Of a stretch of 64,000 nucleotides of DNA, positions 1-53,303 are shown piece by piece. Under the pieces are notes generated by a model that was not told where the DNA came from, did not search any database, and saw only the letters and a list, made by a program, of their open reading frames with translations. The DNA lies in contig WIXG01000038.1 in the NCBI GenBank assembly GCA_009869945.1, forward strand, positions 1 through 64,000. The letters are read 5' to 3'. Each line of letters begins with the position of its first letter. The stretch's first letter is position 1. The position numbers and the translations under genes were made by a program. Origin of the DNA: Mesaphorura yosii (Eukaryota; Arthropoda; Collembola; Poduromorpha; Tullbergiidae).

Positions 1-2479
<2,479 letters not shown>

Positions 2480-13844: not shown

Positions 13845-13962
13845 AGCCTGAAAATGAGAATCGGTCACTGCGGAATCGTCTGATAACCGGGAATTGAAAA
13901 TGGCTTCAACCGTCGATCGGAATTCCTCGCCCAGAAAGTACTCGGCCCAGGAAACTATTCAG
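13845..13962 (+). CDS. sick: Alternative first coding exon of navigator gene (21 codons, with 5' UTR)
   Basis: Coding starts at the ATG at 13900 (context AAAATGG) and gives MASTVDRNSSPRKYSAQETIQ minus its last residue, ending CAG|GTAAGC at 13962/13963 in phase 0. Joined to 45069 this reads ...AQETIQ then IYTDWANHYLE, closely resembling the short N-termini of vertebrate NAV2 isoforms in layout. A pyrimidine-rich acceptor, TAATTCTATTTCAG, ends at 13844, so the exon is probably preceded by an untranslated exon. A nine-codon upstream ORF (13854-13883) precedes the main ATG and could lower translation. It is the best short first-exon candidate because both splice sites and the start context are good. 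Confidence 0.6.
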
Positions 13963-16900
13963 GTAAGCAATCTGATTTGAATTCTTTGGTCCAGAGCATT
14001 CTTTATAAATGCTAACGAGTTCTGGTGGGATTCAAAGCCGGAGTCGTAATCGAATCGAATTCCCTTGCGCTGCGCTACGTCTTGCCGCAAGTGAAGATGT
14101 GAATAACAAGTTAATCCAATGAGTTATTGGACTCCTGCTGCTCGCCGCAGCGGAGAAATTGTCATTACTGAGCTTAGGTGTATTTTGCATTCCATCGTAT
14201 TGCGTTGCTGAGATTAGGCACAGCAAACCGTGGTGGTCTCTTAAAATCGAGTCGAGTTGGAACGGAACTGTAAAACTTGCAGGCAACATAAATAAAATAT
14301 TATGGGAAATATTTAGTGACCAAATAAGGCGAATATTTTTATACGAGACCTCCACACATGTGACGGTGTAAAATTTGTGCGCGTCTGAGCCGCATGAACC
14401 GTGATAATGATAACGACTAACGACAATGCTTGATGCAGCTGAGTGCTCGCTCAAACGTCGTAAATAAGCCAATGCAAAGCTAAGCTAGAGTCAAGTCAAG
14501 AAAGTCTTTCAGGTAATTTCTCTCGTGCATGTGTATTTCTTTTCAATTCAATAATGCCTGCCTGGCCTGACTTCGAGAAGTCTCTGAAAAGGTTAAAAAG
14601 TAAAGGGGAATTGCATTTTTCGTGCTGGGCTTCAAAAGGAAATAATATTTATGGAGCTGAGACTGCAGCAAAGAAAAAGAAGCGTCCGCAGTCCAGAAGC
14701 AAAGGTTTATCTCCAGAGGCCAAGCGACGTCGTAGTCGTAAGTCAAAGAGCATCTTTTCATCCGCGTCTCTCTCGAGTGTCTCGAGCGCGGGGCTGAGAA
14801 CATTGATATTGGCCGGCGTCCTTTTCATTCTCAGAGACTTGAGTACATGTATTTCTATTATTGTCAAATGTAGCATAGCAAACAGATTTATTGTGAAATT
14901 ATTAGAGGCAGTGCAATCGCAATGCAATGCAACTGCAGGGAAGTATTTTATTCTTGAATCTTTCTATAGATTTTAATATCGGACGGGTGCTAAAAATTCT
15001 TTAACTGTCTATGCATCTTCTCATTGCATCCGTGCATTAGTCATCATTCAATTTATGTCTGTGTCTGCGCTACTTGCGAAAAGACTTCTGGGCAACAAAA
15101 AGATTGTCTCGTCCACTCTGTCTCGCCTTGCCACTGCAATTCCTTATCGTCACCCTCAAAAAGCGCAGTTCGCGGTTCCAAATCCTTCAACATTACATTG
15201 CCTAGCTCGTTGCTCTCATTATTCATCCTTCGTCCGCTCATTTCTGGCACAAACCCATTAAAGTGAGAAGAATAATCTGCAAGAGAAAAGAAAGAAGGGG
15301 ATGCTCCGTGAAAGAACACAGTAACATTTATGAATGGGTCTGCTATTCTGTTTTCACCCTCAGCAGCCCAGCAGCAGCAGCTTTCATTCATTCCGATGCA
15401 TTTCTCCTTTCAAGACCAGTGTGAGTCAGTCGCATCTCGCATTAATTTTGATATTAAGCCACGGCGAATGCTGCACTGCAATCTGTGTGATGACGAGTTT
15501 TTGGGGTTGTTGCGTTCAGGAGACTTGCCAAGTCAAGAAATACGCTCTCCTATTAAAAATCGTCTTCGTCATCACCCTCATTCCAACTCTGATCTGGGAC
15601 AGCAATATTTCGAAGGAGGGCCTTACGCGTGTAAGCGTGTAATACATCGGATGACGAGGCATTGCGCTGTATTGTTGTATATTGTGTCGTGTCTTTTTGG
15701 TGTAGCAGTATTAAATCGCATTCTGGTACGGGTCGCTGTTGCTGTTGCTGTTGCTCCTCATTCTTAATGTTATTAAAACTATACAACACTTTCCTGCATT
15801 TTCCCTTCCGTTCGATCTTAACTACCCTTCATTCAAAGTCGGGCGTCGCGTCGGAACTTTCTCTTGGGGGTGATCTGGCCTGGCCGTCTTTTTTAAATTG
15901 TCTTGGAGGAGACGCTGCTGCTGTTGCTGTTGCTGCATAAACTTAACAATGGGCAAGTGCTTGACTCATTCAAATAGCAGCACTTGAGTCGGTGACACCA
16001 CCTGACTAAAGCACAGTGACGTTCATTTAATCTGCGTCTTTTCACTGTCGTGCAATTATTTGGAGCCAGAAATTCTTGTTCTGTGGCTGTGTTTCTGTGT
16101 TTTGCATCAACGGTAAGCAACCTGCTAACGGCCTGGGAAAGTGTAATTTGAGAACCCGGGTTGATTTACAACCTTGATTGCTAGTCTTGTAAGCGTACGC
16201 ATACGTATGCAGTGATAATTAATGCATCAGACTTTCTGCTCTCCATTGAGGCAATTAATCACTCGTGCAACGCAAATGCATTGAAGTAGTGTACGGCTGA
16301 ATGGAATTGGAGCGGAGTGAAAGTGAAAAGGTGTAAATTACAACCAAGCAAACAGGCCAAGTCGGGCGAAACGCGAAACCCTGCTCTTTTGGATCTCCAG
16401 CAGAGAAAATTAAAAGAAAGTTAGTTGCAAGAAAAGTTGCTCTAATTTATTTCGCTACCTGTGCGTGCAGTACAGTGCAGTGCAAAGTTAGAAAAGTTGC
16501 AAGTTTGTTGTTCAGCACGAACAATTAAAAATGAGTCGCATAAATTTTGTTTAAATGACTTTAGAATGCACTACGTGCAACGAGTGAAAAACGAGAGAAA
16601 GTGGCAACCAAGGTGAAGGTTACATTGTGATAGTGTAATATAAAAGTAATTTTCTCTCTCGGTAGCGGCAACGAAAGAAGCACGAAGTCTTTGTCTTTTA
16701 TGCATTTTGTTTGCCAACTGCGAGATCGCTGTATTCCGTCTTGAGTGTATAATAACAATAGATTGCTCGCACCTCGCAGACAGTTTTTGGCTAAACTTCA
16801 AGAAGCCCAAATGTAACAACCACAACGGCACTTGGCTTTTATACGCGAAAAAGTATGCAGCATGCTAGGATTTTTGAATGATTTCGATACATTCTTTGCG

Positions 16901-17571
16901 CGCGTAATTCGCCTTCCGCTTTTTCATGACTCAAAAGTTTTACCAAGAAGCCAGGACGGAGTTGAAATTTGATTTGAGTTACTTTGGGAAAGTTGCCGCT
17001 GCTGCTGCCTTTTTCCAACTCATTTCCTTTGGAGATCGGCGGCTGAATTTTTATTTCTTACGTATGGCGGCGAAGAAGTCGACAGGAAACAACAGCGATA
17101 AACAATCTTCAATTCAAGTGGAAGTGGAAACGGACACATAAGACGATCTTCAACTTGGCAGCATGAAAACACAAACTTGAACTTGAACTTACAGTTGCCA
17201 TTGCATTTTAAACGTAGCAATAAGTTCCATGATTACATGAGAGAACAGCGAAAGGAAGTTCGAATCTGTTTTGGAGAATAAAAATCAAATAAATAAATGT
17301 CAAAAGTTTCTCGTATTTTCGCTGGAAATGAAAATATTGTGGGCGCGGATGTATTTTCGAATTTTCATCTTCGCTGTGGAGCGTGTAACTTCCGCTTTTG
17401 ATTTGATGCTGCGTTGCTGAAAGACGGGCATGCACTTCTTTAACTGCTGAGCGAATATATTTTGGAGCTGGTGCCTTCTTAATGAAGATGGACAGACAAG
17501 AGTAAAAGTACGAAATAATTTTATTACGGCGAGAATTGTGAACTGTGAATTAGGCGGCGTGAGCAGAAGCA
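13963..17571. other. Intron of navigator gene, with one weak exon candidate
   Basis: No supported independent gene. Trinucleotide-like runs of GCTGTT occur at 15736-15755 and 15914-15937. A palindrome is at 16199-16210. A GTAAGC donor-like site at 16111 follows sequence without an ATG and might end an untranslated exon. The exon candidate at 14651-14737 is listed separately. Confidence 0.4.
14651..14737 (+). CDS. sick: Candidate alternative first exon of navigator gene (29 codons)
   Basis: The ATG at 14651 opens a basic peptide (begins MELRLQQRKRSVRSPEAK, ends DVVV). It meets a perfect GTAAGT donor at 14738 after exactly 29 codons, so it could join the CH exon at 45069 in frame. A second frame through the same bases is Lys/Arg-rich over a longer span but meets this donor in phase 1, so it does not fit. 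Evidence is limited to start, donor and phase. Confidence 0.3.
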
Positions 17572-19230
17572 ATGGACATGTTGAATGAGTCGCAGTCGCA
17601 CGTGAAAGACGATGAAAGCACCAGCAAAGAGAGCAGTAATTTGAAGAAAAGTGTTTTTCCCGTTGTCGGTGAGGAGCCGCCAAGAAATTTATGCGATTTG
17701 AAGAAACGATTGTTGTTGAGTCGTAACAGGATTTACGCAGCTTCTCAGACACAACAACTGCCCTCAAATGGCTACGGCAGTTATAAAACAGAGGAAGAGC
17801 TGCCCGATACGACTAGAAATAATGCAATTACAACGCGTGCACGTGCGGGAAGATATTCTCCTACTTCCCGTCCAAGAATTACCTGTTACGGTTTCTCTCC
17901 AAAGACGCATCTCACCGACACGACACGAACTCTGCTTGAGCGTGGTGGCCGATACTCCGTTACCGTTAACGGCGGCAGTAAATTAATTGCCGTTGCTCCG
18001 GATTGTCCAGCAAGAAGAATGGGAAATATTTTACCCAAACAACTACACCGCGCTCCGGCTCCGCCTGCGAAGAAGACGAGGTTCAAACCTTCGCCTGCAC
18101 CTTCGCGCAGAGACGCACAGATCGCAAAAGTAGCGCCTCAGGCTCAGGCGGCGCCGATAAATTCAAGCACGCCATCACTGGGTCCGAAAGCCACGTTTAG
18201 CCACTCCAAGAAGCCCCTCGCCCAAAAATGGCCTGAGCCCAGCAATGAGCGAATTCCCCAAAGTGCAGATGCAGAGAAATCGGTTGGAAAAAGTTTTTCT
18301 CAATGTCAAATTAGGAATAAACCCAAGTGTCAAGAAACGGAGAAAACTTTGAGCATTTCTCCCGCCGTAATTGAAAGTGACAAGAATGAGACGACGGAAG
18401 AGTCGGACGCGGAAGAAGACGTCGAAATGGGAAGCGGGCTCGGATGGAATCAAGACGTTAATGCCCGTGCCTGCGATGCTGTGACTCGACTTCGACTCTT
18501 GACGCTGCACGCCTTGAATTGCGATGCGCAAGGCAAGACGAGTTTCGCATTCGTTACGGCAAGATTGGATAAAGAACGAGAAAATGACGCGAGCCTTGAT
18601 TCCCAAGCCGATGCCGGTCGCGGCGAATATGACAAACAAGAAGATGAAGAACCTGACGAAACTTTTAACGATATGAGTGGCTGCGAAAACAGTGCAGCAG
18701 AATTCTCTGGATTGATGTCGTCTCCGTCTTGCACTTTGCGAAAGCAGTGGGAGAATGCAGCAGCAGAAAAAGATTTATGCACGCGCATCATCTCTCCGAC
18801 GAATCTTCCCATTCACAGTCCGCTGTCGCTACTGAACGCAGGCACTGACAAGTCTGTAATGTCCTGTCACGAGGAAATGTCTTGTTTTCCCATTTGCTCA
18901 TCTTTCACTGCTGCTGTTGCTGTGAAAGCGAATGACTCGGCTAATTCTGCTACTGCTTCCTCTCTTCTTCATCCGCCGAACGTTGCTCGCACTGCTCCAA
19001 GTGAGCAATTAGAAGATGAGAACCTTCAAGTGCAAATAACGCCGGGTATTTTTGCTTCAAAAAACGACGAATTTCTACGGCCGCCACATAAAAACGTGCC
19101 ACCGCGGCCAACGTCGCCGTCTTCCACATTTTCTGACCACGACAGCCAAACTCAATCGCCCCTGCATTTATTAAAGCCCCCTGTGTTTCTGCTTCTCAAC
19201 GAGAAAGGTTTCCAGGTTCCTTTCACAAAG
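17572..19230 (+). CDS. sick: Long alternative first exon of navigator gene (553 codons, disordered N-terminus)
   Basis: This is by far the longest open frame in the window. It starts at the ATG at 17572 (context GCAATGG; a second ATG follows two codons later) and ends at AAG|GTAAGC, 19230/19231, in phase 0, so it can join the CH exon at 45069. The frame runs only about 30 codons past the donor before a stop. The protein begins MDMLNESQSHVKDDESTSKE. It is rich in Ser, Pro, Ala and charged residues. It has a basic Pro-rich segment (APAPPAKKTRFKPSPAPSRR), an acidic stretch (TTEESDAEEDVEMG), and PPRPTSPSS near the end, possibly an SH3-type or phospho-site. No folded domain is recognised. Vertebrate NAV2/NAV3 also have long disordered N-termini before the CH domain, but I see no residue-level similarity. 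An independent single-exon gene is less likely, because the strong donor sits just before the stop. Confidence 0.85.
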
Positions 19231-22200
19231 GTAAGCCGATCTTGTGTAAAAAAAAAGCTAAAAAGGCAGCAGCACTTTGTGCTTATCGTCAATCGTAATT
19301 CAAGCGTCAAGCGTCAAAGTTGACTGAAAACCAAGCATTAGAGATTCGAACTGAATCAGGCAGGCAATAAATTGGCTTTCTCAAGCCCAAATGCCTGTGG
19401 CTGTGAAGACAAAAGTTTGTTGCGTCTGTAAGGAGTTCATATTTCTATTGCAGAAGAATTTCTATTACATTTAGACAATTTTCCAGTCCATCACACCTTT
19501 CACGGTCGCAGCCGCCGCCGCAAGTTGAGGACGGTAATGGGTCCGGTCTCTTTTACGTGAGTGGTTCAATGCAACGCGGTGAATGTCTCGGGAGGCAGTC
19601 TAGATATCGTCACCATTCATTATTTATACAATACAAACAAAGCATGGTTGAAAACAATGCAGTACAATGCCTCGCCACGTTTTCAGCACTGTTTTACTAT
19701 TGCTTTACACAAATCGCGTTCATTTGGGTGGAATTTAAATTTTTCACACGAGAGTTCTCACTAAAACATATTTAAAGTCATAAGCACATGTGAAACGAAG
19801 ACGCAGAGGGCGAAAGCCAAGATTGTTGATCTATAAAAAGACTTCCTTTGCTTTGCCTAGCAAGTTTTTCAATTTCAATCCATAATTTTCTGGGATGCAC
19901 TTCGCGTTTCACGTTTCGCCGGAGTGAAGGTCGGTCGGTCGTTACGTTGTTGCACCCGCAATAAAAAAATTCCGCTCATACCCGGCTCTCATCTTCTCTG
20001 CTCTTCGTTTGCTCATTATGCTCGAGCTGTTGTCTTGACTCGACCATATTTTCTGATTCCGTATTTTCCTCACGGAGTCAAACGACGAGAGAAAAAAAAA
20101 CTTTCTCCTTCTCCTTTCACTTGCATCGGGCATGGCGAAAAGGAAAAGGAAACCCATTGCAAGGACTCACCGTACGTGTGTTTCGCTTGTGTTAAAAGTT
20201 CACGTGCTTCACGTTTCGGATGGCCCTGCTCTGAGTGAATGAGAATCGTAAACTGCACAGAAAGTGCATCGCCACACATTTGCGCTTGCAGTTGCATTGC
20301 AATGCAGAAGAATTCCATACGAGTGCGGAGACAGAGAGCATCAGCATCGGAAACAGTTACACAGCATCACAGCATCGCCGTTTCCACTTCCAATGATTTT
20401 CACTCTCGTGACTCGCTCGCCTTCGCGTTTGTTCGCTCTTTGAAGGAGTAAATGCAAAAGGTTTTGGTCCCCTTAAGCCATTCATCTTGTGATTCATTCT
20501 CACTATTTTGATGGGTCAGAACGGAGCATTCGTAATTCCTTGGTATCCCTACTGCTCACATGCTAAGCCATTTCAGCTTGTCTGCCTTGCCTGTGAAATG
20601 AAAGCACCGAACACGTATGCCGAGTTTGCTTTTATTCGTGTGTGTTCCCAAAGGATCCGCTCTGAATGACATTCCGTATATTTTCATTCATTTGAATTAA
20701 AAAGAATTATTACTTACTCGCGAGAGGATCGTGTTGACTTAACAAAGTCGCCCAAAGCATTGTTGCATTGCTGCTGCGTAATGGTGTTAAAATAGTAATT
20801 ACATTTGAGTTCAATCTACTCAACGGGATAATTATACTTAAAATTAGAATCAAATTGGAATTAGGTTCGGCATGCCTCAAATGCTTTATTTTCTCACCGA
20901 CGGTAGGAAAATGGCTGTTGGCTCCCTTATGTAATGCGATTCTTAAGATTACAGGTCAATGCAATATTTATGAGGGAAACTGAAGGTTGGTCTTTTTGTT
21001 TTCTTTAATGGCATTACAAAATGCTAGTGCGAATGCGAGCGCGAGCATTTGTCATTTGTCAATTTATATCGAATTAGGAAAGAACGAGTCAGAGAAATGG
21101 CGAATTAGGAATCAATTGAATGAATTGCTTTTGCAGGGGTGGAGGAGCGAGCAAGATCAAGTGCATCGTGTGCAAGAGAAGGTATGATTCACAATTCACA
21201 TCTGCCAGGTCGCTGTGCGTTGCCGCTCTGCAAAACTGCATTCAAACTTTCGTCTTTTCTCCGGCGCACCGGCTTGTTTTCCTAACTGCAGTGCAAACGC
21301 AGACTGCAATTTATGTTTTAAATAAACTAACATGCGCGCACACGTACGCTGTTTGTGTTTTGCGGCATTTGCGACCCGAGTCCCATGTGGAAAGTCGAAT
21401 TTCGGAAAATGACACCATGCGATGCAATTTCATGCATCGTTGAACACCAATATGCAGTACAGGACTGCAAGTGCAGTCAGCTCACAAGTCGCGTCATACT
21501 CATGACATCGAATATTCCGCAGACTAATTGGAAACACAGACGACAAGGCGCGTTAGACTTGAGAGCAGCATTCTAGAGAGATGCACCTTTGATGAAAGAT
21601 CGGCTTGAGCAGCAGCAGTAGTCGAGTCTCGAGTGCTTCTCCTGCTGCGAGCTAATTTTGTAGTTTGCGGGCTGGTGTAGGCCTCACACTTCAATGCATG
21701 CTTGCCAGAGTGATCCAAGTCGTAATATCGGATTTCTCGGCCCACACCCACTACAATTTGAATTATGCATTCAACCCATTCGTTCTTTATTGTGGCGAGT
21801 CAATCCTTGGCTAATTTCCTACGCTAGCACTTGAGCTTACTCTCTCCCTTGGGAGCTATCATTTAACCTCTCCAATTTCAAATAATGGCATTTAATACGG
21901 AGATTGTGGTTAGTTAGTACAGGAAGCGATGGAAATCAATCCATGTACAATTCGCACCGTATTTACGCCAAGCACCAGTACCAGTAATGAAAACGAATTC
22001 GCGATTCGCTGCTCGTTTGTTGCTCTTGAAAGATGAGCGGTGTAATTAAGTTGAGATGTAATGAACTTGTCTTTCATCTTGATGCCTCTTTTCTTCAGCC
22101 TTTCTTTCCTTTGAGTGTTCACCGGCAGATGAGGAGAAGAATAAGAGAGTCATGTTGGGAAAGCCAGCTTTCTTCCTGTACACACTAAATTGTGTTTTGT

Positions 22201-25200
22201 GTACTTTGCTTCCTTTTACGTTTATCCCAAAAGATAATGGCTTACTTCTCTCGTTCATACGTTGCACAGTACGTTCGTGCATTTGATGCCAAAATTAGAG
22301 CCCTGAGAAGAATAATGCAGAAACATAATGTATTATTTGCAGAAACGCGCCGAGCGGGAGCGAGCGCAATATTTCAGAGAAAGCACGATAAAAAGAAGAA
22401 AAGCTTGTTTGGTCTATTAGCTTGTAAAGACTCATTTACAAAGCTGCTTCTTTGAGCGTTTGAGCATTTCATGTATCAACACTTCCCCGTCGGCATGCAG
22501 CCACAGCCACGTACGTCAACGCTCCATGCCCGCTTCGTTCGCTGCTGCTTTCTCTTTTATCTTTTCAATTAGTTAACGTCAAAGACAATTTTTTACGCTG
22601 ATATGAAATAATTAAAAGAAAGTACAAAGACGAACCACCGCCAGATTTCCATTCTGTACTGCACTGCGCTTCAATTTTATTGAATTAACATGTTTGAATT
22701 TTTAAAGACGAAAGAGTCTCTTGGTCGGCTTTTCTCCTTCCGGGTAATTTTCCAGCGGCGAAAGGTCACTCCGAGAAACAGCAAGTCTGTGTTTCCCTGT
22801 CTCCCAAGAGTCTTATAAATACCGTTGATGTTGAGACGAGGACGAGAGACGAGAAATTCTTTTCACTGCATTCCATGCGGGCACTAATCAGCATCGGCAC
22901 TGAACGTGAATTTGCTCACGCCAAGTTGTGCTTGTGGTAGTGATCCATGAATGACAGTTGCCGAGCAAAAGAGTCGAGGTGCGAGGTGGGCAAGGCTTTG
23001 TAATGGCCAGGACGTCTTGATTACACACTCTGTGGTAATTTACTTTCGATTTAACAAGCCCGGTCGTAAATAAGAAGGGAAATAAATCCCGAGTTGTTGA
23101 GCAGTAATTCCACTCGGCGGGGCCTTCCAATCGCCTTTCACACTGAAACTTCAATTCGTTGAGATTAAGCAAAGCAAGAATGCGCTGTCTATTTTATTGT
23201 GGCCGTGGTGTTAATCCAAGACCTGCGAACTTTACTGCTTTGAGTGCAATTTCTTGAATTTATGAGATCGCCCTCTGAAAAAAAGAAAGCTGTAGACGGA
23301 ATTTAGCCGGGATCCAAATTATAGAATGCAAGCGAACAAACGTAAGCTTCGAGTCATTTCAAGAGTGGACAACGGCAACAACACAAAAGAGACAAAATCA
23401 AACGAGTAAACAAACAAGAGCAACCAAGGAAATAAAATTGAAAATGATGAAAAAGGGATTTCATTTCTCGACGTTTTCTATGTGCCTCGAAGATTGAAGA
23501 TTGGCTGTCACCATAGAATTCTTTTAAAGCCGTCAAGACCACACAGGTTCGGCGGCTTGTTCTTTTATTATTTCCTCCAAAATGAGGCGGGCTACCTTTC
23601 CCTTGTGGTGCGGTGAGCTGACCAATTTTGCAGCCGCGCACTCGAGTGAAAGAACGACTGCGGAAGCCCAGACAGTATTGACGTTGTATGGCAAATAAGA
23701 TTTGAGAGACAACAGGAAGAGTTCATTTAATCGGTTGACCACTGACCGACCACAAAGCAATGAAGGCAATGCACAATACGCAACAACAACAAAACCTGTA
23801 ATACTTGTGTTTTTCATGCACGCACAGTTCAGTAGTGGTCAGAATTTAGGGACATGAAAAGAGAAAAGAGAAAGCAAAGGCAGAAGAGGTAAGAGAGCTG
23901 AGGAATACAAAAGAAGGCAAAACCACACAAGCTCGCGGCTTTCTTGCAGTCGAGAGGTACATTTTTGATAAATGAACCGCGTGCACCCACTGCACCACAC
24001 CGAGTTTAACACAAAAGATTTCCGGTGGTTAAGAAAGAACGAACAAGTTCACTAATCTGAGTTTTGACAACACAAAATTAATCAACGAGACTCGACGGAA
24101 GGTAAAAGCAAAGCAAACCTGGCTTCGCTCTGGTATGACTGGACTGCACTGTTAATTTAAAAATAAACAATTCCAGGCACGGCGTAGTGCAGCGAATTTT
24201 TACGAGCTTTTCATATTCGCTATTCGCATAACTCTGCTTGTTCAACACTTTCACATTTCCTATACTCGGCCATAAAACCTACTGCCGGCCAGGCCAGGCG
24301 AATTCATGCTTTTCAAGTACTCAAGCATGCAGGCTAACATGAATTTAGTTGTAAAAATTTCTTGCACAATTTTATAGCCTCTGCTCGTGCTCGACTCATT
24401 TGCTCTTGTTCGTAGCTTGTTTACAGGAAATTAGAAGTTTGACATGGCGTGGCGTGCGCACTTCGGTGCGCTGGACTCGTAAAAAACGGACTACAAGCAT
24501 GTCATTCTCATAAGCTATATATGCACATTTCATGCTAGCAAAGCAAATGCGTTGCGGGCCGGAAGATGAAAATTTAATGCTGCTTTAATTGGACTCGCAG
24601 TTTCACGACAAGGTTCTAATTTACACTTGGAAATTTGCAATGCAACATTGTGAGCAAGAATCAAGAACGCGTATTTTACCGATAAATGTTTATGCGTACA
24701 AAGTCATAAAGACGAAAACAACCCTTATCTCGTTTTGCACAAATGTTAGCAGCTTGTTTCCTATTTCTTCTGCTTGCCTGCGCCAGGCTTTACTCAACTA
24801 TTCGCCTTTGCTCGTTTGCATTCGGTTCATCGTAGACTTCAACGCTTTGCAAATAAGCAAGCAAAATTCAATGTTTATAGTAGTCGAGTCATCCTAAGAC
24901 TTACAGCACCATTTCTTAATATGTAACTGATTGAGACATGTGAATCATTTCCATATTAGTCTCGAGATTACCCCCGTGCGCGTGCCGATGCCACTCGACA
25001 CGAAGGGAATTACTAAAATATCAGATCTGCGCACATTAGTCACCAAAACATAAACGAGGAATTGCGACAGGACTTGTATATTAATATTTTTGATTACTTT
25101 GCCATCGCCTTTGCCCTTGCAATGATGAGAATCACGACAGATCAACCCCTCAACTGCACTTGAACGGAGTACACATTTTTCAACTCATCATCACGTAATA

Positions 25201-25960: not shown

Positions 25961-26769
25961 TTACTTACGTGCAATATACTCGTATACGCAATTACTTGAT
26001 TGACAAACCATGAAGTGGTTGAAGATATCAAATATACTGCCCTCTGCACTGCCCTCCTCGTTTTCATCCGATTGCGAAACAACGCGTTGCTCTTTCTCGT
26101 CCTCTGAGTGGGCATCTTGCTCAGTAGGGCTCTCCTGCTTGTCATCCGGTGGAAGCTGATTTTCTTCCATAGGGGGGTTTTTCTGTGAGAAGAATTGAAG
26201 CTGAGGAAAGGTAGCCAATTTCTCTGGAGCTTCTTGTTTCACACGTTTAAGGATCGAATTGTATATTCCTTGTCGTCTTGTCTCCAACATTGAGATGGAA
26301 AACCAGTCTTCCATATTGGGAAGTGGTAGCACAAACGAATAAATAGGATTTTTGAAAAATGCTTCCACATAGTGCAAAAGAAATATTTTACAATCACTTG
26401 AATTTGGTTGGAGTGGTACAGTCAGCTGATACCCTGGAAAGGTATGCACATCAAAGACTCATTGTCTTTTCTTTTCCTGTCAAAATAGTCAGAATTTTAC
26501 AAATTGAGGATCTACAACCTGGTCTAGAAATCCTATTGGCAAATACCTGGTATTCCATGTCCAGGTGCTCTCGTAAATTCTTGTGAACGAGAGCTGATAT
26601 TGGAGTTATTTTATTTAGTCCATGAAATGGGCCATGGCACTGGGACGAGCAAAAAATTATGAACGAGTTCATCGCAACGCAATGTAAATGTTCGTGTCCA
26701 GGCCTGGCAACTATTAGTCATTTTGAAGAGATATATATTTTCGGAAAAATATGAAGAAATACACATTTT
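25961..26769 (-). pseudogene. SENP6/7-type SUMO protease (Ulp1, peptidase C48) C-terminal fragment, decayed
   Basis: Family role: cysteine proteases that cut SUMO or SUMO chains in the nucleus. Read on the - strand, it gives ISSYFSENIYLF, then WTR and FLLVPV (26769 to 26638), typical of the segment before the catalytic His. A frameshift follows, then NLREHLDMEYQ. A 121-nt GT-AG intron (26546-26426) leads to LTVPLQPNSSDCKIFLLHYV, carrying the oxyanion Gln (26408-26410) and the nucleophile Cys (26390-26392). Downstream NPIYSF and WF-X12-IYNSILKRV match the SENP6/7 tail, then an acidic low-complexity end. The open part runs to a stop at 25961, or to a GTAAGT donor at 25968. The His-Trp motif and catalytic Asp are not visible, and frame is broken near 26638. 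Because an intron-like gap remains, it is not a simple processed copy. It lies antisense inside the navigator intron. Confidence 0.65.
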
Positions 26770-32122: not shown

Positions 32123-32509
32123 ATGGATGTAAAGACGAAAGTTTTCGGCATTAACATGAAACCGTGCCACACGACGATTCCAACGCGCCTTACCACCACA
32201 CATTTGATACATCAGCAGCATCCACATCGCAACACAAAACTGAACGGGAGCAGCAGAAATCATCTTCTGACTAATTCAACGTCGAATATTTGCACCAACG
32301 CCAGTTCACCGTGTGTCAGTTCACCTGGAATGCAGTCCGGTGCACTTCATAACAGCAACAGCAACATCATTGAAATTGGACTTAATTCAAGCACGCATTA
32401 CGCACACTCATTCTTGAGCAGCAACAGTAATTGCAGTAATCGCTGCGAGTCGGGTGCAGGCACATTTCTCTGGAACTGTGAACGAAATGGTTATGGCCGG
32501 CCTAAAAGA
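32123..32509 (+). CDS. sick: Alternative first exon of navigator gene (129 codons, Asn/Ser/His-rich)
   Basis: The ATG at 32123 (context GAGAATGG) gives MDVKTKVFGINMKPCHTTIP at the N-terminus and runs 129 codons. It ends RPKR at AGA|GTAAGT, 32509/32510, in phase 0, so it can join the CH exon at 45069 to read RPKR-IYTDW. The body is rich in Asn, Ser, His and Thr, with repeated NSNS and SNS tracts, and is predicted disordered. A stop occurs within six codons past the donor. The donor matches the consensus exactly, and the frame is longer than its surroundings. No homology is recognised for the body; assignment rests on donor, phase, position and strand. Confidence 0.78.
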
Positions 32510-35500: not shown

Positions 35501-38500
35501 AATCGTTTGCCCGGCTTTATAGCTTCTTGCAACGCAATGCAAAGCAACGCGAGCGAATAGAAGAAATGGTTACGTATGGCAGCTCAAGTCGTAAATCTTT
35601 GCAGTTGGTAGTTACTTGAAAGGATGCGCATTGAATTACTTACGTTGCATTGCTGCAACCCTGTGAGAGTGACTGTTTTCCAATGTCATTCAAATCTACA
35701 ATCAATACGGACAAAATACGCATTACGGAAATGACATAATCTGCCACTTTTTCAATTATGAAAAAGCAATGCAGAGATAGCAGCGAAGAAACGAAAACAA
35801 ATTGCCTCATCAATGATTTATGGGCAAACTGCAATTGCAATGTAATTTGTGAAATTGCTGAATCCTTTGTAAGAATTTTTATGGCCACGCCACGCTGCGC
35901 CGTTTTGTGGCTTGGCCTGTGAGCGTCTTAATCTCGGAATGCATTCCACTGGCTTGACATTAATGATATTCAAGCAATCTCTGACAAAGTGTTGTTGAAT
36001 TCTTGCAACGACTCGCATTCCAGCAAGCAAAACACATGCGAATGAGTCGAGTGTGATTCCAATGTTAATTCAGGACGACGTGCACAAGTTAGAACGTTAA
36101 GCTAACAAGGTTAGAAGAGTTCTGAGTCATCCTCCTCTTGCTTGCATTGTTGCATTGCCTTTGAGAGCTCTCACTGCAACGAAAACAAGCTCAAAGAAAA
36201 GTAAATCGTAGCACAGCGGGAATGCAGCGTCGCTGGCGGGGAGAAAGTCCGAAGCTAATAAGAAAGCGAAAGCAGAGCAGAGAGGGGATGATAGACGAAG
36301 ATAACAAGATGGAAAATCTAATTTTGAAAATTCGGATGAAATGGATAATTTTTTGAAGAGGACCGACGCGACCAACTTTCTCCTCAAGTGCCTTTGCTTC
36401 ACGTAGGCACTAGTATCATTTCTTCATTTCGAATTCATCCGGCGCGCCGTGTCACGAATTTACTTTTCGAGTCGCGAGAAAATGCTGCAGGATAGGCAAA
36501 TGGCTAATAATCATCTGAGCTGCTGTGACGCTGTGAGTAAGCCTCCAAGTGAAGCCAATTTGTTGATATTTGGAAATATGAAGCATCTAAACGCCGCCGC
36601 AGAGCTGAGAGATCAGAGTGTCTGAGTGATGATTATCTTTGAAGGAAAGCAACACTAAACTCAAACGAGAAACGAGTTTCAGAGGCCTTCAGGCAGGCAG
36701 ACTCTGCCGTGTTTATGCCGGTGGCCGAATGAATTAATTTCACTTACAATTCAAGGGAAGCCTTCTCTTCGAAATATCATGTTTATGCGATGCACGGTGC
36801 AGAATACAACTTTCTTTGAAGAAAATGTAAATTTCCTTGGCACAAAGAAAGAGAAAGCTGGAAAGTGGAACTGCAATGCAGAGCAGACAGCAGACACGGC
36901 TCGGCAGATTTCGGTACATCCAGGAGCTGTTCTTGCTCTTCCAGGTTCCACGCCTGCTCTTCTGGAACCGCGTTGCAAGTTGTAAACTTGAACTTGAATA
37001 AATTTCTGCTCCTCTGCTCTCTTGCACAGCACGTAGAAGTAATTCTTACACTTAAATCTTGTTTTCTGCAAACAATATTTGAGACTCACCGAGCGCACCG
37101 TAATTTAATGAAATTTCCTTCGGGCAATGCGCTGCCGTAAAAAATGCAAGAAAAGCTCGACGAAGAAATGTGCGGCAAATTTCTAAATATTAAGACAGAC
37201 TGGAAGCCACAGAAAGAGCGTTCCATTTTAACTCAGGCTCTCAACGGCTGGAAAAATCACACAAAGTTGAACGAACAAGTTATTAAGGAGCAGTATGTCA
37301 TTATATTTAAGTAATACGGACAATGACTGCGCTTTCTTTTCCATTGAGTCCAGAACCGACCACTGTCGGTGGTGGTGGAAGTGGAAAGCAAGGACAGTAC
37401 AGTACACAAAAAGAAGCAAAGCGCAGCACAGCGTGGTTGGGTCAAAATATTTCATTAACCTTCCGCTGTGTCTATCGACTACTTCTTTCCCCAAGAAGAA
37501 ACATCACTGCTGCTGTTCCTGCTGCTGCTGCGGGTTGTTGAGGTTGAAATGCATGACACGTCATCTTATGTCATCATCATAACCCAATTGGACAAATACT
37601 ACAATAGACGTTGGACAACACTGTCGTCGGGGGAGAAAATAATTTCTTTTCCGCTTTCCTCTTTCCTCTGCAATATTTTTGTAGTTCTATTTCTAGTATA
37701 CGCGGACTTTAATACGAAGCTATCAAACGATATTTGCGCAAGTTTAAATAATTGTGGATTTTTCAAGATTAAATAACGCGTTTGGGAGTGTATTCCAGCT
37801 AAATTTTTCCCGTTAGCTGATGAAATCCGAAATCGAGTCCGAGTCTTGGTGCGAATACAAAATTGGGTGAAGAGAAGACGAGAAAAACGTGGCATTTGTT
37901 TGTATAAAGGGAGAGGGCACAGAGGAAAAAGCGAGATTTCTTTTTCCTTTGACAAATTAATGAAACTTTTAATGTCTTACATTTCATTGCGTCACTACGC
38001 ACTGGGAAAGTCTGAAAAGGTAGACAATTTGATATCATTGCAGTACGCACCCAGTTTTAAGGAGAGAAACAGAAATCTGGCGGTTGTGAACGTGAAACTG
38101 AGAGGCTGAACAGGGAAAAAGACATTCGTACAATGTAAACAAGAGTAATATGAAAAACAGAAAAACTCGCTAGTCGCTTTCTTTTCTTGTGTGTGATTCC
38201 GACTCGGTGAGCGGTGAATTGTAGCGACATTTGTCTGCAAAATTCAAAGGGAGACAGCCTTCAGGCTCGCGCCGCTGCATTTCCCCAAATAATGTGCAAT
38301 ATTCATGAATGCAGCTACAATGCGACGAGTCAGAACGTGGGAGTCGACTTTACTTTGAGTCATTCAATCCACAAAGAATATAATGACTGCATAAAACTGC
38401 TGGAGACAGATTTTTTCCGCTCCTATTCTGGGATTCAATGAACTCATGAATCTTAAAATTTCTTTGCTAATCTCGCCTGCCTGATTTATGGCGAGAAATT

Positions 38501-41500
38501 TATTGCGCACAACTAATGAGCAAAGATTAGCGTTTGTCATGCACGCAGCAACGCCCAACACCGAGTTACGTAATTCAGTCTCAGCTGAGTTTATGTGTTT
38601 GTGAATTCAGCGACGACCCCCGATGCACTTCCACCGTTTCCTTTTACTGTTGTGCTACTGCTTTCGACTGACAAGGAAGGAAGTACGCTATTCTGCCGGA
38701 TCGAGATGTCAGTGTGGTTCGTGTTACTCGAGCGACTTGCTAAATTCTCCTGAGATTTCGCATAACTTCTCCCTGCTCTTGTGCTTTGTGTCTTGGTTTT
38801 ATTTCTGTTAAGTTGGCTGATTGACTCTGCCGTCACGTATATTTTTTGCGTGTGCGTTTTTCTCCCTTTCTTTCTGCGTTGTGAGTTGGGCGTTGTGTAA
38901 CCAAGAAGGATCCGCAAACTCCGTGACCATGGCGCTGGTGCTCCATGCCACGAGAATTGAAGTGTAGCGTGGAGACGAGACAGACGAGAATCAGAGAATG
39001 CATGCATAGAATATAATTACATTTTGAGATCAGATTTATTGCCATTCGCATGGCGGAATGACTTATCCACTCTGCCATGCCATTGCATTGCTCGCGGTAT
39101 CAATTACTTACTTTAAATAATGACTTGCAGAGATTCGGAAAGTGTAACTTAATGCGTCCACATTTTTCACTGAAGAAAGATCGTCGTGCCGTGGCTCCGA
39201 TCGTTAATGCTTTATGCCTGGCCTGGCCTGGACTGGCCTGGCCCGTACTGCCGTACTTGTAACGAATTTGCTAGCCGTTTCAATCTTTTGTTCGGCATAA
39301 AAATAACATTTGTAAATTGGCATTCTTCGTTGCCGTCGGAGAAAGTGAGCTTCGATCTCGTACTTTATCCTCCCTCTAAATTATTGAAAATGTCGACCTG
39401 CCTCCGATTTGATTCCGATTGTGATGCACTTTCATTTTCCTCCGTGAGATTTAAATTGATGATTCAGTCTTTCCTCAGCGCTTCGTCTCTCCCCTTCGCC
39501 TGCTCCGCGATCGTCTCCGTTCAGTTGAAGAAAATGTTGTTATAGGATTTTCCATGTCTCGCTCCTATCCAATTTACAAAGTCAGTGCGTTACAAGGCTT
39601 AAAATGTGAAGAGAAGAGAGATGAAGCAGGAAATCGTGCACTTCTCCGTCTTGACTAGGCAAAACTTGGCTGAAATCTTAATCTTCGGACATTTGTAGAA
39701 TGTGCCCAGCTTTCCGCAGCGATTGGCGTCACTCGATCAACAAAATTCGACATTGCACCTGGAATTTACTCAGATTTTCATGAATTCGGTGGAAAACTGC
39801 ACAGGAAAAGGAGACATATGCCTTCGTGTAGGGATTAAAAAGTTTTACGTGAAGTTGTGAACAACAGGCTGTACTCATATGAATTATGTTCACTTTCGCG
39901 GTATGTTCATAGCTCATAACGGGGAAATTATCAAACTGAGGGTGGAGGGCAAACCACGATTTATATGCATGCATGGTCTCAGAATTCACTCACTCTTTAC
40001 CCCGCGGAAGTATCCGAGCAAGGGAGTGAAAGTGGAATATAATCACACGATTTGCATATTATACGAGCCGTAGTTTGCTTTGCGGTTCGACCAAGGTCAA
40101 GCAGTGCATTTGCAGAAGGATTGTGGAATTACTGCCTATTGTTCTCTTGCCGTTCTCTGAGCTCGAGCACATTTCAAAATTAATTTCGACTCAACCTGAC
40201 TAATGAATATTTAATCAATTCCGACGCTCGTACACATATCGAGACGAACTGCCATGCCATGCCACCCATCCAGCGTGCAATTATTCTGTCCTCATATTTC
40301 TTTCTTTCTACCTTCCGCTCACCCCTGCGACTTGCCGTTGCTACTGTCGGATGGTTTATGATTGTTGCGTGTACGCAATCAATTACGAAGTCTGAAATGT
40401 CAACATACCAATTCAAGAAGTAATGGATGGCGGGGAAGGACGCAACATTGTACTTTTGTTGCCAAAATAAAGGGCAGAGTAAAAGTTCGCTTCCGCCGGT
40501 GTAAAAACGTGCATGCAATAATTGCTTCATAAAATTTTTCATGGCGTAGCTGGCAGAAGAGGTTTCATTTGCACCTTCCTCGCCGTCTAATCAATCACTG
40601 CGCTGTCTTAATTTTTGTGCGAGGAAAAAACAATGCATCATGCCGTCTGCGTCTGCGAAAGTGGGCGAAATAGACAATCATTCAAAATCCAAAAATCCCG
40701 CGCAGGCTGCAGGCTGAATTGAAAACCGTAAGCTGTCACGCTAATCACACAAAGCAAAGTTTCTGATTTTATCAAACCACCCTACCGCTAATTAAAGTGG
40801 CCAGACTCCACATCTTCCTAAAATACAGTGCGAAATACGCGGGTCTCATCTTGTAAGACTAGAAAACAGTTCCCAAGGTTCATCGTCGTATTAAAATTCT
40901 TGTTCCGCTGTTGCAAGTCCACGTGGCTCGTTGCTCGTGGTTCATGAAAGCCGTACGCCACGCCAGGATAATCCTCTTGAGCATTTCTCTTTCTTGTTGT
41001 TATGCAGTTGAGGTTTTTGCTAGTTAAAATCCTCGCCAGTCCAAACTCTTAATTTCACAACGTTGTGAATAGCTGCATGAGTCGGATGGTGTTCTGAAAT
41101 TCAGGAACAGTTGCATGGCTGACTGCAAGTTCAGATTGCATTCCCAGCCTGCACTGCACTGCACGTGCACTTGGAATTGCATACAAACAGCGAAACAACA
41201 TCTGCATTGCTGCAGCTTGCCTCGCACCGCGAAATTAAAATTCTAATACTGCACACATTTTGAGATTTTGAGGCACCGAAACTCCCAGAATTCAAGCCCT
41301 TATGCTCTCGATCACTTTGTAAACAACAAAACACAGAGTTGTGGTAGATTTACACTTTACACTTTTTGGTAGACGCAGACGGATTACAGATTGTACAATC
41401 TGTACAATTTACAATTATAACTTGGTCCAAGAAACGTCTCAAAATTGAACCGAGGGCCGAGGGGGCGTTTTTTATTGCGGTTGCGTCTGAATTTTCAGGA

Positions 41501-43588
41501 AAGTCCAAGAAATTGAGGCTGGAAATTAGAATTTAGCAGTGGTTACATGAATATAATTTAAAGGTCAGTTTGGGAATGAAATGGAAATATGCGTGTTTGT
41601 AGTAAAATGAGGAAAGGAGCTGCGCTTAAGAGCACCGAATTCTAATACGAATTAACCTAAGCGCATTATCCATCAGGAAGTTTATGAACCGGAAAAATAA
41701 ATGTCTGAGAGTGAAAGATTGAATTCACGAGTTCAGAAATACGAAATACGAGCTGTGCCGCGCTGCTCGCAAAGTCACGCATCTTGGAACGAATTTTATG
41801 CGATACCCTGAGTCGCTGCTCGCATTACACGTTACGAGTGCAGAACAACATCAGACGTAGAAACACAATGATCATCTCAATCTGATTATTCGTGTAGTGC
41901 CCACCATTCCGAAATGATCGTGAAATGGTTATTGAGTGTAATAGAGTGGATTCATCGCTATTTGTCAAAGAGTGTCTTCTGCACTTCGAAGGCATTGTCT
42001 CTACGCTGCTGCTGCTGCTAATAAAGCGCTTACGCTCAGGAATGTGCTGAGAATTACGGTGAGGGACGGAACTCCGCCGCGTGCGGCGTACGAGCGAGCA
42101 GGAAGCCGGAAGCAGGCAAAGAATTCTGCGGAGCAGAGCAGAGCAGATGAGATTTGTTCTTTCTTTAAGCAATGACAATATATAAATTTTGAAGATAATC
42201 TTCTAAATGGGTGAAAAAAGTCATTTACTTTTGTGTTTCATTGGTTTTCTTTCTCCTGCTCACATTCTTTTATATTTTTATTATATTTCTCCCAATTGGA
42301 TTCATGCAATGAGTTCATGAGCGGAAAACTTACTCCCATTGAGAAGCGCACTGCGTTGCGTTGCATGCCCCATTGCGTCTTGCGTCCCCTTCTCGTATTG
42401 TGTCTTCCCATTTCCAGCTCAATATTTTGTTGCTTAATGAATTGTTTCATTCCTCGTGAGCGTAAACGTAAACGCGGGCTCGTGCAGTAACAAAAGAGGG
42501 CAAATGCGAGCGGGGAGCAAATTTCAAAAATCGAGGACCACTTCACGTTGGTGCCATGACAAATTCATCGACGATTGTCAACGATTCGATAATTGGATGT
42601 ATGCTGGTTACAATAGCAGCGAAGCGCATGCAGAATTTTAAAAATTGCACGCCAAAACTTACGATTTTCCAAAAATAACAGCTCTTGTGAGGCTACCGTC
42701 AAATTAGGAATTACCATTTTGATAAATGCTTTGACAAGTTTAACCCATTTTGTAGCGTTTACTTTCCTTGCGAAGGATTTTAACGACGAGACGTCGTGAC
42801 ACGCGACTGTCGCAAGGTTCAGTAATTTATTAGTTATTTTAATAATTACTGCTTTCTTTGACTTGGGACGTCATCCACTGCTGAAAACGTGCATATAAAT
42901 ATTTTCCAGGGATGTGCTCGTGTTCAGGTCCATTCACAGACAAGTCGACGGGTCTTCCTGCCCTACCGTCGTTGCCTGAAGCTCGTTCCGGGCTGAATTT
43001 GAAGACCCTCGACTCGTGTAATTTTTTAAACACGATACCGACCGAGAATGTGTGTTTTTGAAATTACTGTGACGTTTCACATAACCATTCAGACTCCGGT
43101 GCATGTGTTCCACATTCTGCAGTGTAGTTCTCGTAACTCGTCACTGAGCATCTGAATTATAAATATACAACGCGCACTCATAACTTGCCTTGCCTTGCTG
43201 CTGAGCTGCCGCTCATGTGCCCGGTGCAGCGGAACAGGAATCCAGGGAAGTGAGCTTGGCATATTTATTATAATCTTCTGGTTTTCGGTCTTTGATCTGG
43301 AGCTGCTATATTTACATTTAGCGCATTCACAGGGGACAAGATGGTCCTAGTTTTACGCATACGAAGTGCGTGCGTGTTATCTTCATCTTTCTTTCAGCAA
43401 TTTTTGGCTTCTACTTCTAGAATAGAAACTTTAAGCCTAATCTGGTAAAAATGTTACTTTGAGCCAGGCACGAAGACAGTGCATGGTTGGGTTTGAATCC
43501 GACAGGTTCAGAAAAAGCCGAAGACGGAATCGCTCTTAACTAGATTTTCAAGTATAAGTGAATTTGTAATTAAGAACACGTGTACGAT
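32510..43588. other. Intron of navigator gene, with weak first-exon candidates
   Basis: No independent gene is supported. Short repeats: CGG-type run at 33180-33194, ten T at 33931-33940, CCTTT runs near 35278, GCCTG-type repeats at 39216-39243, CTG run near 42006-42020. A very weak first-exon candidate is 34835-34921 (29 codons, phase 0, poor donor GTAGTA). A slightly better one at 36482-36532 is listed separately. Confidence 0.4.
36482..36532 (+). CDS. sick: Weak candidate first exon of navigator gene (17 codons)
   Basis: The ATG at 36482 (context GAGAAAATG, good) gives MLQDRQMANNHLSCCDA. It ends at GCT|GTGAGT, 36532/36533, in phase 0. It would join the CH exon in frame. The stretch is short enough to be chance. 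Confidence 0.2.
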
Positions 43589-43720
43589 ATGACGTGCATT
43601 CGGGTCAGATACTCGACATCTGACAGTATCGAAGAATACGTCAGTGCAGGTGCGAGTGCAGGCGTAATCTGCAGTTCAACTCTTCCAAAGGATTACAGCG
43701 TGCAGAAGACGATCGTCGAG
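43589..43720 (+). CDS. sick: Probable proximal alternative first exon of navigator gene (44 codons)
   Basis: The ATG at 43589 gives a peptide starting MTCIRVRYSTSDSIEEYVSA and ending YSVQKTIVE. It stops at GAG|GTAAAA, 43720/43721, after exactly 44 codons, phase 0. Joined to 45069 it would read KTIVE-IYTDWANH. It is the first-exon candidate closest to the CH exon, with an intron of only 1348 nt. An E-box-like CACGTG lies at 43578-43583, just upstream. The frame runs only eight codons past the donor. The composition, with mixed charged and polar residues and no low-complexity tracts, looks protein-like. Confidence 0.45.
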
Positions 43721-45068
43721 GTAAAAAATGCACGCATCATTTTATGAGAAAATAATTCAATGTTCCTTGGGTGTCGTTCATGCTTTCCATTTCCATTTAC
43801 GCTGCTTTACGCATGTGCGCTGTGTGCACTTTACTGTTGATATTCACGCACGCGCATTATTCTTTCACGACCCTATCTGCACTCCGAATCTGAAACTGGG
43901 CATACAAACAAAAGGGACATAATTCATGAGTAATGTTTCTCACTTCATTATCTTGCTCAAATGCTCGCTGTATTCCATCGAAGCTGGTTCTATCTCTCAG
44001 TTTCCGTGATGATAATCATGACTTTCATGACTCTGCAAGAGACAAAATCAAAACAATGCAATGAGAATTATCCACAATAAAAGTATCCCGTATAAATCAT
44101 GCACTCATGTTGACAGACTCATTGTTGTAATCTCAGTCAACAATCTCTTACATAGTGCAATGCAGACTGCATCTGTTGTCATAACTTTTAACAATAACAT
44201 TGTAGCCTGCCTTTTACGTCTCTTTTGTTTCAAATTCTAAATGGAATGGAATGGAATTACGAGTACGCACAGAACTGAGATTCAGATTAAGCTGTTTGGC
44301 GTGTAGGCATGCACAAAGTACATATTTTACTAGTCGAGAGTAAAAAACATAAAGCACAAAACATAATTCGATGAAATTATGCTTTGTTTGTAAATGTTAT
44401 CTTTCAGAACATTTCAAACCGCAGCAATGCAATGCAATGCCAGTTGCAAGTGTTTGTCGCTTGAAAGATTACTTTATTCGCTCTTTCTTATTCATTTCGC
44501 TCCAATTTGAATTAAACATGAGCTCGGCTCAGACTCTGGTACGCGTTCGGATGAACCGCGCTTTTGCCATGAATGTGTGGAGACGAGAGAAACAGCCGCT
44601 GAGTTATTAAGGGCTGTCGTCTTAAAATACAGCTGTTGATGCAATGGCATGGCGATTGGCGATTGACTCCGATCAACACTTGAAGTGCAGTCAAGCCTCA
44701 GTCGCGTAGAACGCTGAAAGATTTGTAACCAGACGAAATTTCGCATTCACGCCGTAGTATGCCGTCTATGTATGTAATTGACAAGGACAGAATCCACATG
44801 GCCACACGGCGCTCTTCCTGCCAATGCCAAAATCTTAATTGCGCTCTCAACAAATTTAAAACCACTTTGATAAAGTGGCTGCTGTCTTTTCCCGGACCAG
44901 GAAGTCAAAGCTAAGAAAGGCACCCAGCCCTGGCTATGAATAAAGATAAGGTATCAGCATTTATTATAAAAATGCGACTAAAAATTTAAAAGGTTATTAA
45001 AGCGATCCAGAAGAGTTTTATTCTGACGTTTCCAGCGTCTGATCACTGTTTTTTCTTTTTCTTTGCAG
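43721..45068. other. Intron before the CH-domain exon
   Basis: No gene is seen. It ends in a strong pyrimidine tract (TTTTTTCTTTTTCTTTGCAG) directly before 45069. GCAATGCAATGCAATGC occurs near 44424. Confidence 0.6.
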
Positions 45069-45186
45069 ATCTATACGGACTGGGCCAATCACTACTTGGA
45101 AAAGGCGAGATGCAAGCGCCACATTCAGGATTTGCAAGTGGACGTGACGGACGGCATCATTTTGGCCGATGTTGTCGAATCTGTCA
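45069..45186 (+). CDS. sick: Navigator/sickie exon: CH domain part 1
   Basis: This is the first exon shared by all CH-containing forms. It translates to IYTDWANHYLEKARCKRHI followed by QDLQVDVTDGIILADVVESV, which I recognise as the start of the neuron navigator CH domain (vertebrate NAV2/NAV3 read IYTDWANHYLAKSGHKRLI). The family links microtubule plus ends and actin, and acts in axon outgrowth and cell migration. The acceptor TTTGCAG is preceded by a long pyrimidine tract; the exon begins in phase 0 and ends in phase 1 at GTCA|GTAAGT. A phase-0 acceptor inside the mature sequence at exactly this residue is also where vertebrate NAV isoforms diverge, which explains why many first exons can feed it. 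Confidence 0.95.
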
Positions 45187-46526: not shown

Positions 46527-46579
46527 CTAACCAGAAGGTGCCGGACTTGTCCAGGAAGCCAAAGAATGCCTCGCAAATG
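46527..46579 (+). CDS. sick: Navigator/sickie exon: CH domain part 2 (53 nt)
   Basis: A small exon entered in phase 1 and left in phase 0. With the last base of the previous exon it reads TNQKVPDLSRKPKNASQM and ends ATG|GTAAGA. The vertebrate counterpart reads ANEKIEDINGCPKNRSQM, so length and the PKN-x-SQM end agree exactly. It is too short for routine ORF calling but is fixed by homology and by both splice sites. Confidence 0.93.
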
Positions 46580-53031: not shown

Positions 53032-53303
53032 TTCGACAATATTCAGTCCTGCCTCGTGTTTCTGTCCAGTCTTGGCGTAGCGCTGGATGGAATTACAGCG
53101 CGTGACATCCGTGATGGCCACCTGAAGTCGATCCTCAGCCTCTTCTTCCAGCTGTCTCGGTACAAGCAGCAACAGAAGCAACAAGATCGCGATCGACACA
53201 ATCTGATGAAACAATCAACCGAGATGCAATCGCAATCATGTGGGATTGGTGCGAGGGGCAACGGTGCCGTACCGACGGGACGTCATGCACAAGAAACGTC
53301 CAA
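53032..53303 (+). CDS. sick: Navigator/sickie exon: CH domain part 3 and Gln-rich linker
   Basis: Phase 0 entry after ATTTTGCAG. It reads FDNIQSCLVFLSSLGVALDG, then ITARDIRDGHLKSILSLFFQ and LSRYKQQQK. This matches the end of the navigator CH domain (vertebrate IENIDACLNFLA ... LSAEEIRNGNLKAILGLFFS LSRYKQQQ). It is followed by a Gln/Arg/His-rich linker. The exon leaves in phase 2 at TCCAA|GTAAGA. An in-frame stop lies directly in the donor, so splicing is needed. The N-terminal CH fold of about 105 residues is complete once the three exons are joined. Confidence 0.95.

Follow-up and report, generated by a model that had tools for sequence, protein, structure and literature searches.

The navigator is a nerve-guidance gene, known in the fly as sickie. 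The window analyzed here (the whole stretch of 64,000 nucleotides from Mesaphorura yosii) appears to hold the 5′ half of such a gene (NAV/sickie/UNC-53), which would begin at approximately 13.8 kb of the contig and reach 107 kb or beyond. The question raised by this locus is whether a single CH exon is fed by several alternative first coding exons; the results presented below suggest that this is probably the case.

Navigator identity of the locus and the CH acceptor

The CH domain, which is of an actin-binding type, is encoded by three exons:

45069..45186, plus strand: CH exon 1, IYTDWANHYLEKARCKRHIQDLQVDVTDGIILADVVESV; begins in phase 0 and finishes in phase 1; on its own matches the human NAV2 structure 2YRN with E 6.6e-12
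46527..46579, plus strand: CH exon 2, ending in NQKVPDLSRKPKNASQM; the spliced product aligns without gaps to 2YRN
53032..53304 (3′ end approximate), plus strand: CH exon 3 and the subsequent linker, FDNIQSCL...LSRYKQQQKQQ...

In a PDB search with the three exons spliced, 107 residues, from IYTDW on, were aligned without gaps to the CH structure of human NAV2 (2YRN; E 1.8e-38). The second-best match was an alpha-actinin-like protein (E 1.8e-9), and the Pfam CH model matched the spliced domain with E 8.9e-15. Since the domain is split over exons, the CH exons were not among the matches in a family search of the unspliced genome. On the same contig, positions 105840–107155 match a NAV3 AAA region (best E 1.3e-50), and a NAV-type AAA lid (AAA_lid_NAV1, PF25408) was identified with E 3.4e-43. 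With its single N-terminal CH domain and C-terminal AAA+ region, the locus is a real neuron navigator; it was the only one seen in the assembly. The acceptor of CH exon 1 consists of CAG directly before position 45069, preceded by pyrimidines at 16/16 positions of the scored stretch.

Navigators connect guidance cues with the cytoskeleton, and it is mostly outside the folded domains that their isoforms vary; UNC-53 of C. elegans belongs to the same family and has CH, coiled-coil and AAA+ domains (PMC9877351). In navigators, two coiled coils precede the AAA+ domain.

Four candidate leaders

Upstream of the CH exons, four candidate leaders were recognized:

13845..13962, plus strand: T1, candidate exon comprising 5′ UTR and first coding part (ATG at 13900; 21 codons, MASTVDRNSSPRKYSAQETIQ; donor CAG/GTAAGC)
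17572..19230, plus strand: T2, candidate first coding exon of 553 codons, rich in Ser/Ala/Pro (donor AAG/GTAAGC)
32123..32509, plus strand: T3, candidate first coding exon of 129 codons, rich in Ser/Asn/Thr/His, the least certain of the four (donor AGA/GTAAGT)
43589..43720, plus strand: T4, candidate first coding exon of 44 codons, C-terminus LPKDYSVQKTIVE (weak donor GAG/GTAAAA)

An earlier note on this DNA had described four ATG-started open stretches on one strand, each running up to a GT donor that falls between two codons, and all of its coordinates proved exact. All four stop in phase 0, with a GTAA donor directly following, and each, as had also been claimed, can be joined to the CH exon at 45069 without a frame change, phase 0 being found on both sides of the junction. 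This agreement does not constitute independent evidence, because phase 0 was a criterion by which the stretches had been selected. The proposal of a navigator locus, with first-coding-exon candidates that match the CH exon in phase, is supported.

Each leader ATG is the first in-frame ATG past an in-frame stop located 12–45 nt upstream. Matches of the donors to MAG/GTAAGT amount to 8/9 (T1 and T2), 7/9 (T3) and 6/9 (T4). Acceptor-like sites occur upstream of the stretches at 13900, 32123 and 43589, so these may be second exons; the possible acceptor of T1, ending at 13844, is weak (10/16 pyrimidines, under the threshold of the acceptor scan).

In its own genome T2 matched only itself, and it gave no relative in collections of viral contigs and genome contigs, no PDB or NCBIfam match at E ≤ 1 and no significant Pfam relative. 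The faint Pfam/NCBIfam rows that T2, T3 and T4 produced (E 0.11 to 1.1), among them a retroviral-protease row for T4 at E 0.17, were all far below the cut-off and were dismissed as noise. The surrounding DNA was also scanned, and one exon was located on the strand opposite to the navigator:

25961..26458, minus strand: SENP7-like protease exon

Since T1 and T2 lie beyond the SENP7-like gene, the latter must be nested in a navigator intron if either leader is used. A plus-strand scan of three frames of 19231–32122 and 32510–45068 gave no Pfam row at E ≤ 0.05, but it was insensitive, the real SENP7-like exon having reached only E 0.031 in the same form of scan on the other strand. The gene scan of 13963–17571 covered two frames.

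Open-frame length, composition and a common YSxQxTI cap

Open-frame length was compared with 100 dinucleotide shuffles of region 13845–45068, in which stretches with GT[AG]AG or GTAA[GA] donors were counted. For GT[AG]AG donors, the shuffles contained on average 4.78 stretches of at least 21 codons and 1.45 of at least 44 codons, and none of at least 129 (longest, 117); for GTAA[GA] donors the means were 5.51 and 1.50, and at least 129 codons were reached in 2/100 shuffles (longest, 147). The real DNA contains, on the plus and minus strands respectively, 11 and 4 (GT[AG]AG) or 10 and 11 (GTAA[GA]) stretches of at least 21 codons, and 5 and 1 or 6 and 4 of at least 44 codons. The 553 codons of T2 exceed all 100 shuffles. 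By length alone, T2 is thus far beyond chance, while T1 and T4 are no longer than chance gives. The length of T3 gives it moderate support against the shuffles but is marginal overall, weakened by a real-DNA control (124 kb, both strands, GT[AG]AG donors) in which other stretches of at least 129 codons were found on the minus strand at 112077–112553, 3573–3974 and 3354–3974; a further one (81230–81823, plus strand) falls within a long navigator frame.

The per-codon synonymous score of T2 (−0.080, compared to a null mean of −0.099) is close to that of non-coding DNA. The scores of T3 were not significant (null fractions 0.26 and 0.11) and those of T1 were borderline (0.06 and 0.03); T4 alone stood out, its score being reached by 1.5% of null stretches (0.015). 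Codon usage was rejected as a coding test, being too weak in this genome to separate even a 553-codon frame.

The tails had been described as disordered or basic, a characterization that does not hold for the set: only T3 is clearly basic (net charge +8, compared to +1, −1 and −1 for the remaining three), T4 lies on the ordered side of the charge-hydropathy score (−0.231) and T2 is borderline (−0.017).

Nor do the four tails “differ completely”, as the note had stated. In T1 as in T4, the tail closes with YSxQxTI immediately ahead of the junction (ungapped BLOSUM62 score, 34), and the distances of this cap from the phase-0 donor agree within one residue. The likeness was spotted post hoc, and the control rate is about 1 in 10,000 tail pairs. 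A score of at least 34 was reached by 25/200,000 random control pairs, with overlapping and related tails kept in, and by 24 of the 302,609 non-overlapping pairs (779 tails). By our reading, 17 of these 24 represent related kinase loci, which leaves 7, or ~2e-5 per pair. When T1 and T4 were each compared with 788 tails of the pool, none reached 34. Among the five shared residues, S, T and I are specified by different codons in the two leaders, and Y and Q by identical ones. Because the motif is rare in the controls and three of its five residues are differently encoded, T1 and T4 are probably translated.

Proposed alternative first exons and rival readings

We propose that the one phase-0 acceptor (45068/45069) receives any of several alternative first coding exons, which are probably under the control of separate promoters. 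The product would be one CH-linker-AAA+ protein with differing N-terminal leaders; tissue-specific use of the junctions, and some effect on cytoskeletal targeting, may follow. T1 and T4 would provide short leaders that place the related YSxQxTI cap directly ahead of the first CH helix, T2 would add a long low-complexity extension comparable to the one by which isoform J of fly Sickie is lengthened at its N-terminus, and T3 may contribute a shorter extension of basic character. We regard T4 as very likely to be a used navigator leader, T1 as only slightly less so and T2 as a probable one; for T3 this is doubtful.

These two leaders would be best read as the outcome of an old duplication of the ancestral first coding exon; alternatively, a single constraint may act on both exons. 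A tentative extension of this reading is that the duplicated copies lie 30 kb apart and that the cap extends the first CH helix, T2 (and T3) being capless. If true, promoter choice would switch, in addition to a disordered tail, the N-terminal border of the CH domain itself, and tune binding of actin or a partner.

It is an evenly balanced matter whether only T1 and T4, perhaps with T2, are navigator exons, T3 being a chance frame in repeat-rich intron DNA. The non-significant codon scores of T3, the AGC/AAC repeats within it and the similar open stretches on the minus strand of the contig are consistent with a chance frame, but its length is reached in 0/100 (GT[AG]AG) and 2/100 (GTAA[GA]) shuffles, its donor matches at 7/9 positions and its ATG stands 7 codons past a stop. 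T2 (and T3) could also be separate same-strand genes within the intron, outside the navigator. We consider this unlikely: T2 does lack a significant Pfam, NCBIfam or PDB relative linking it to the navigator, and the interval already contains the SENP7-like fragment, but the insensitive plus-strand scan revealed no such gene at its Pfam threshold, T2 finishes in the phase of the navigator acceptor, and fly Sickie isoform J is likewise longer than B at the N-terminus.

Even less likely is a navigator whose sole start is T4, located 1.35 kb ahead of the CH exon, with T1–T3 unrelated to it. T4 is the nearest of the tails and has the best codon-score fraction, and the SENP7-like gene would become a plain neighbor; however, the same C-terminal cap recurs in T1, at a distance of 31 kb to the CH exon, and T2 is too long for chance. 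The order of the stretches on one strand would suit successive exons of one long leader, but a stop precedes each ATG without an intervening listed acceptor-like site, so they are not readable in series, which makes this arrangement highly improbable.

The preferred reading, alternative first exons, can be compared with human NAV2. In 2YRN, which represents NAV2 isoform 4, the residues just before IYTDW read VIHGLEDQKR (taken as native residues, not tag), and these differ from those of NAV3 and canonical NAV2, which fits the earlier claim that NAV2 and NAV3 diverge at this point. The alignment of 2YRN to the CH domain (134.7 bits without a leader) gains one residue only with T4 (136.4 bits) and ten poorly matching residues with T1 (139.2 bits), the query lengths being different. 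T2 alone gave no PDB match at E ≤ 1.

Alternative navigator N-termini are probably real at this locus, and such isoform variation has already been published in fly and human. In the fly, Sickie isoforms B (2,197 aa) and J (2,707 aa) have the CH, CC and AAA+ domains in common, but the N-terminus of J is 510 residues longer, and a disordered region forms part of the added sequence (PMC9877351). Here T2 would contribute 553 codons, and there are up to four candidate leaders. A literature search found no paper on sickie isoforms with a transcription start site. Alternate promoter usage is known for human NAV2 (PMC9985553); exon 16 skipping in NAV2 and Nav2 regulation are treated in PMC9065059 and PMC11452682, respectively.

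Cleanly readable leaders, two of them with a common cap, would make this locus a simple place to test for an influence of promoter choice on the CH domain. If an annotation took the closest ATG as the start, as much as 30 kb of the navigator would be lost and the nested protease gene would be mistaken for a neighbor.

A 605-codon frame farther along the contig (88980–90794) was also weighed as an extra first exon; when its final 394 bases were scanned for GT[AG]A, TGC/GTGAAG at 90773 was the only site. Two SRIP strings were seen in this frame; navigator SxIP motifs sit in disordered linkers.

Identity and extent of the navigator gene

The assembly comprises 93 Mb in 1127 contigs. Five exact TTAGG units in a row were matched 40 times (overlaps counted; 0 for the reversed-pattern control), and such arrays would be compatible with an arthropod. 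In C38, the 347-kb contig that opens with the window, positions 45069–45188 and 53032–53211 were the two best of seven matches of a NAV3 CH query, and all four matches of a NAV3 AAA query fell within 105840–107155. A middle CH exon was located at 46527–46579. The three joined CH exons aligned with human NAV2 (2YRN) over 107 residues, ungapped, from IYTDW on (E 1.8e-38), and the AAA part matched AAA_lid_NAV1. Together, these matches identify a single navigator gene on the plus strand, extending to at least 107 kb. Its CH exons are absent from the 34 matches listed in a Pfam CH search of the genome because they are split.

Past the window and inside this gene, C38:88980–90794 (+) contains a 605-codon open frame with two SRIP strings, whose first ATG lies 39 nt past the frame opening. 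Possible readings are a linker exon or, for an isoform lacking the CH domain, another first exon.

Candidate leaders and the shared end of T1 and T4

The earlier note suggests that at least four alternative first exons feed one phase-0 CH exon. When the sequence was re-read, the positions and open frames of these four stretches proved exactly as claimed.

Candidate leaders and CH exons (plus strand). Donor: match to MAG/GTAAGT. Null: fractions of null stretches scoring as high (codon score, then synonymous score).
T1, 13900–13962, ATG-started leader, 21 codons; donor 8/9; null 0.062, 0.033
T2, 17572–19230, ATG-started leader, 553 codons; donor 8/9; null (stretches of 60 codons) 0.139, 0.415
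T3, 32123–32509, ATG-started leader, 129 codons; donor 7/9; null (stretches of 60 codons) 0.263, 0.109
T4, 43589–43720, ATG-started leader, 44 codons; donor 6/9; null 0.015, 0.015
CH exon 1, 45069–45186, phase-0 start; null 0.002, 0.049
CH exon 3 with following linker, 53032 to about 53304; null 0.0003, 0.003 (itself part of the training set)

An in-frame stop lies 12–45 nt upstream of each leader ATG, with no other in-frame ATG in between, and the acceptor at 45068 has 16/16 pyrimidines in the scored stretch. Acceptor-like sites precede T3 (32056, 31933) and T4 (43420, 43397); none was found within the 400 bases scanned upstream of T2. A possible acceptor of the T1 exon at 13844 (10/16 pyrimidines) was read by eye and is missing from the acceptor scan before T1, which gave 13763, 13607 and 13512. 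Since an exon from 13844 or 13763 would contain the in-frame stop at 13855, the T1 exon is only possible as the first coding exon, and is perhaps not the first exon of the transcript. Its 5′ UTR part includes an upstream ORF of 9 codons, ATG to TGA (13854–13883, by eye).

The C-terminal ends of T1 (PRKYSAQETIQ) and T4 (LPKDYSVQKTIVE) share a YSxQxTI cap just before the predicted junction with the CH exon. Their ungapped end score, for a likeness spotted post hoc, is 34, compared to 4–12 for the remaining five tail pairs. Neither T1 nor T4 reached this score with any control tail (0/788 each). It was obtained by 25/200,000 random control-tail pairs (overlapping and related tails included). When 779 control tails were paired without overlap, 24 of the 302,609 pairs reached it; 17 of these were judged to come from related kinase loci, leaving 7. 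The codons of the cap differ between T1 and T4 for S, T and I, and are identical for Y and Q. A loosened pattern, run over a six-frame translation of 114 kb of C38, gave two matches beyond T1 and T4, neither of them followed by a GTAA donor in the adjoining bases inspected. The shared end is the best evidence that T1 and T4 are both translated and joined to the same exon, in which case the gene would extend back to 13.9 kb.

Variable leaders ahead of a constant navigator CH domain are already known: for Sickie, PMC9877351 describes an isoform B of 2,197 aa and an isoform J of 2,707 aa, the latter with extra N-terminal sequence including a disordered region and the same major domains, and in the solved NAV2 isoform 4 VIHGLEDQKR precedes IYTDW. 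No description of a cap common to two leaders was found in the literature searched (the motif itself was not a search term), and this feature may be new. With the mechanism known in the family, the duplicated cap is one testable detail.

Length and codon usage

Open ATG-to-donor stretches were counted in 100 dinucleotide shuffles of 13845–45068. The means were 4.78 stretches of at least 21 codons and 1.45 of at least 44 for GT[AG]AG donors, and 5.51 and 1.50 for GTAA[GA]. In the real sequence, the counts for GT[AG]AG are 11 and 5 on the plus strand and 4 and 1 on the minus strand; for GTAA[GA] they are 10 and 6 (plus) and 11 and 4 (minus). A length of 129 codons was reached in 0/100 (GT[AG]AG) and 2/100 (GTAA[GA]) shuffles, the longest stretches being 117 and 147 codons. 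Both strands of 124 kb of C38 yielded further GT[AG]AG stretches of at least 129 codons: three on the minus strand, two of them sharing one frame, and one inside a long navigator frame. Length therefore backs T2 strongly, T3 weakly, and T1 and T4 not at all.

The codon table contrasted 19,530 bases of CH, kinase and navigator matches, in 33 stop-free stretches, with the window's non-coding DNA, and separated the two poorly. It gave no support for T2 or T3, which was counted as a result against them. Overall, the observation of the earlier note holds, and its interpretation has partial support.

A 99-codon ATG-started frame absent from the earlier note (15334–15630, +) ends in phase 0 at GTAAGC. 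Stretches of at least 80 codons occurred in 21/100 shuffles, so it may be due to chance. Its match to Pfam Orexin (E 0.0097) stays at 16.3 bits, under the cut-off of 22.6.

Neighboring genes and intron content

T2 has one match in the genome, T2 itself. A Pfam scan of the three plus-strand frames of 19231–32122 and 32510–45068 gave no rows at E ≤ 0.05; in the same form even the SENP7-like exon described below reached only E 0.031. This insensitive scan would therefore overlook short exons and any gene that lacks known domains.

The minus strand carries a SENP7-like protease exon (25961–26458; SENP7 3EAY, E 7.8e-13). Its Pfam Peptidase_C48 match (E 0.0024; 18.2 bits) lies under the cut-off of 20.7, with E 0.023 in the genome search. 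The exon corresponds to the C-terminal catalytic part and retains SSDC, followed by K (G in human SENP7). If T1 or T2 is real, this SUMO-protease exon would be nested in a navigator intron. A further exon was guessed by eye within 26611–26880 (−). Upstream of the navigator gene, 434–2189 (+) contains C2H2 zinc-finger coding stretches (Pfam zf-C2H2).
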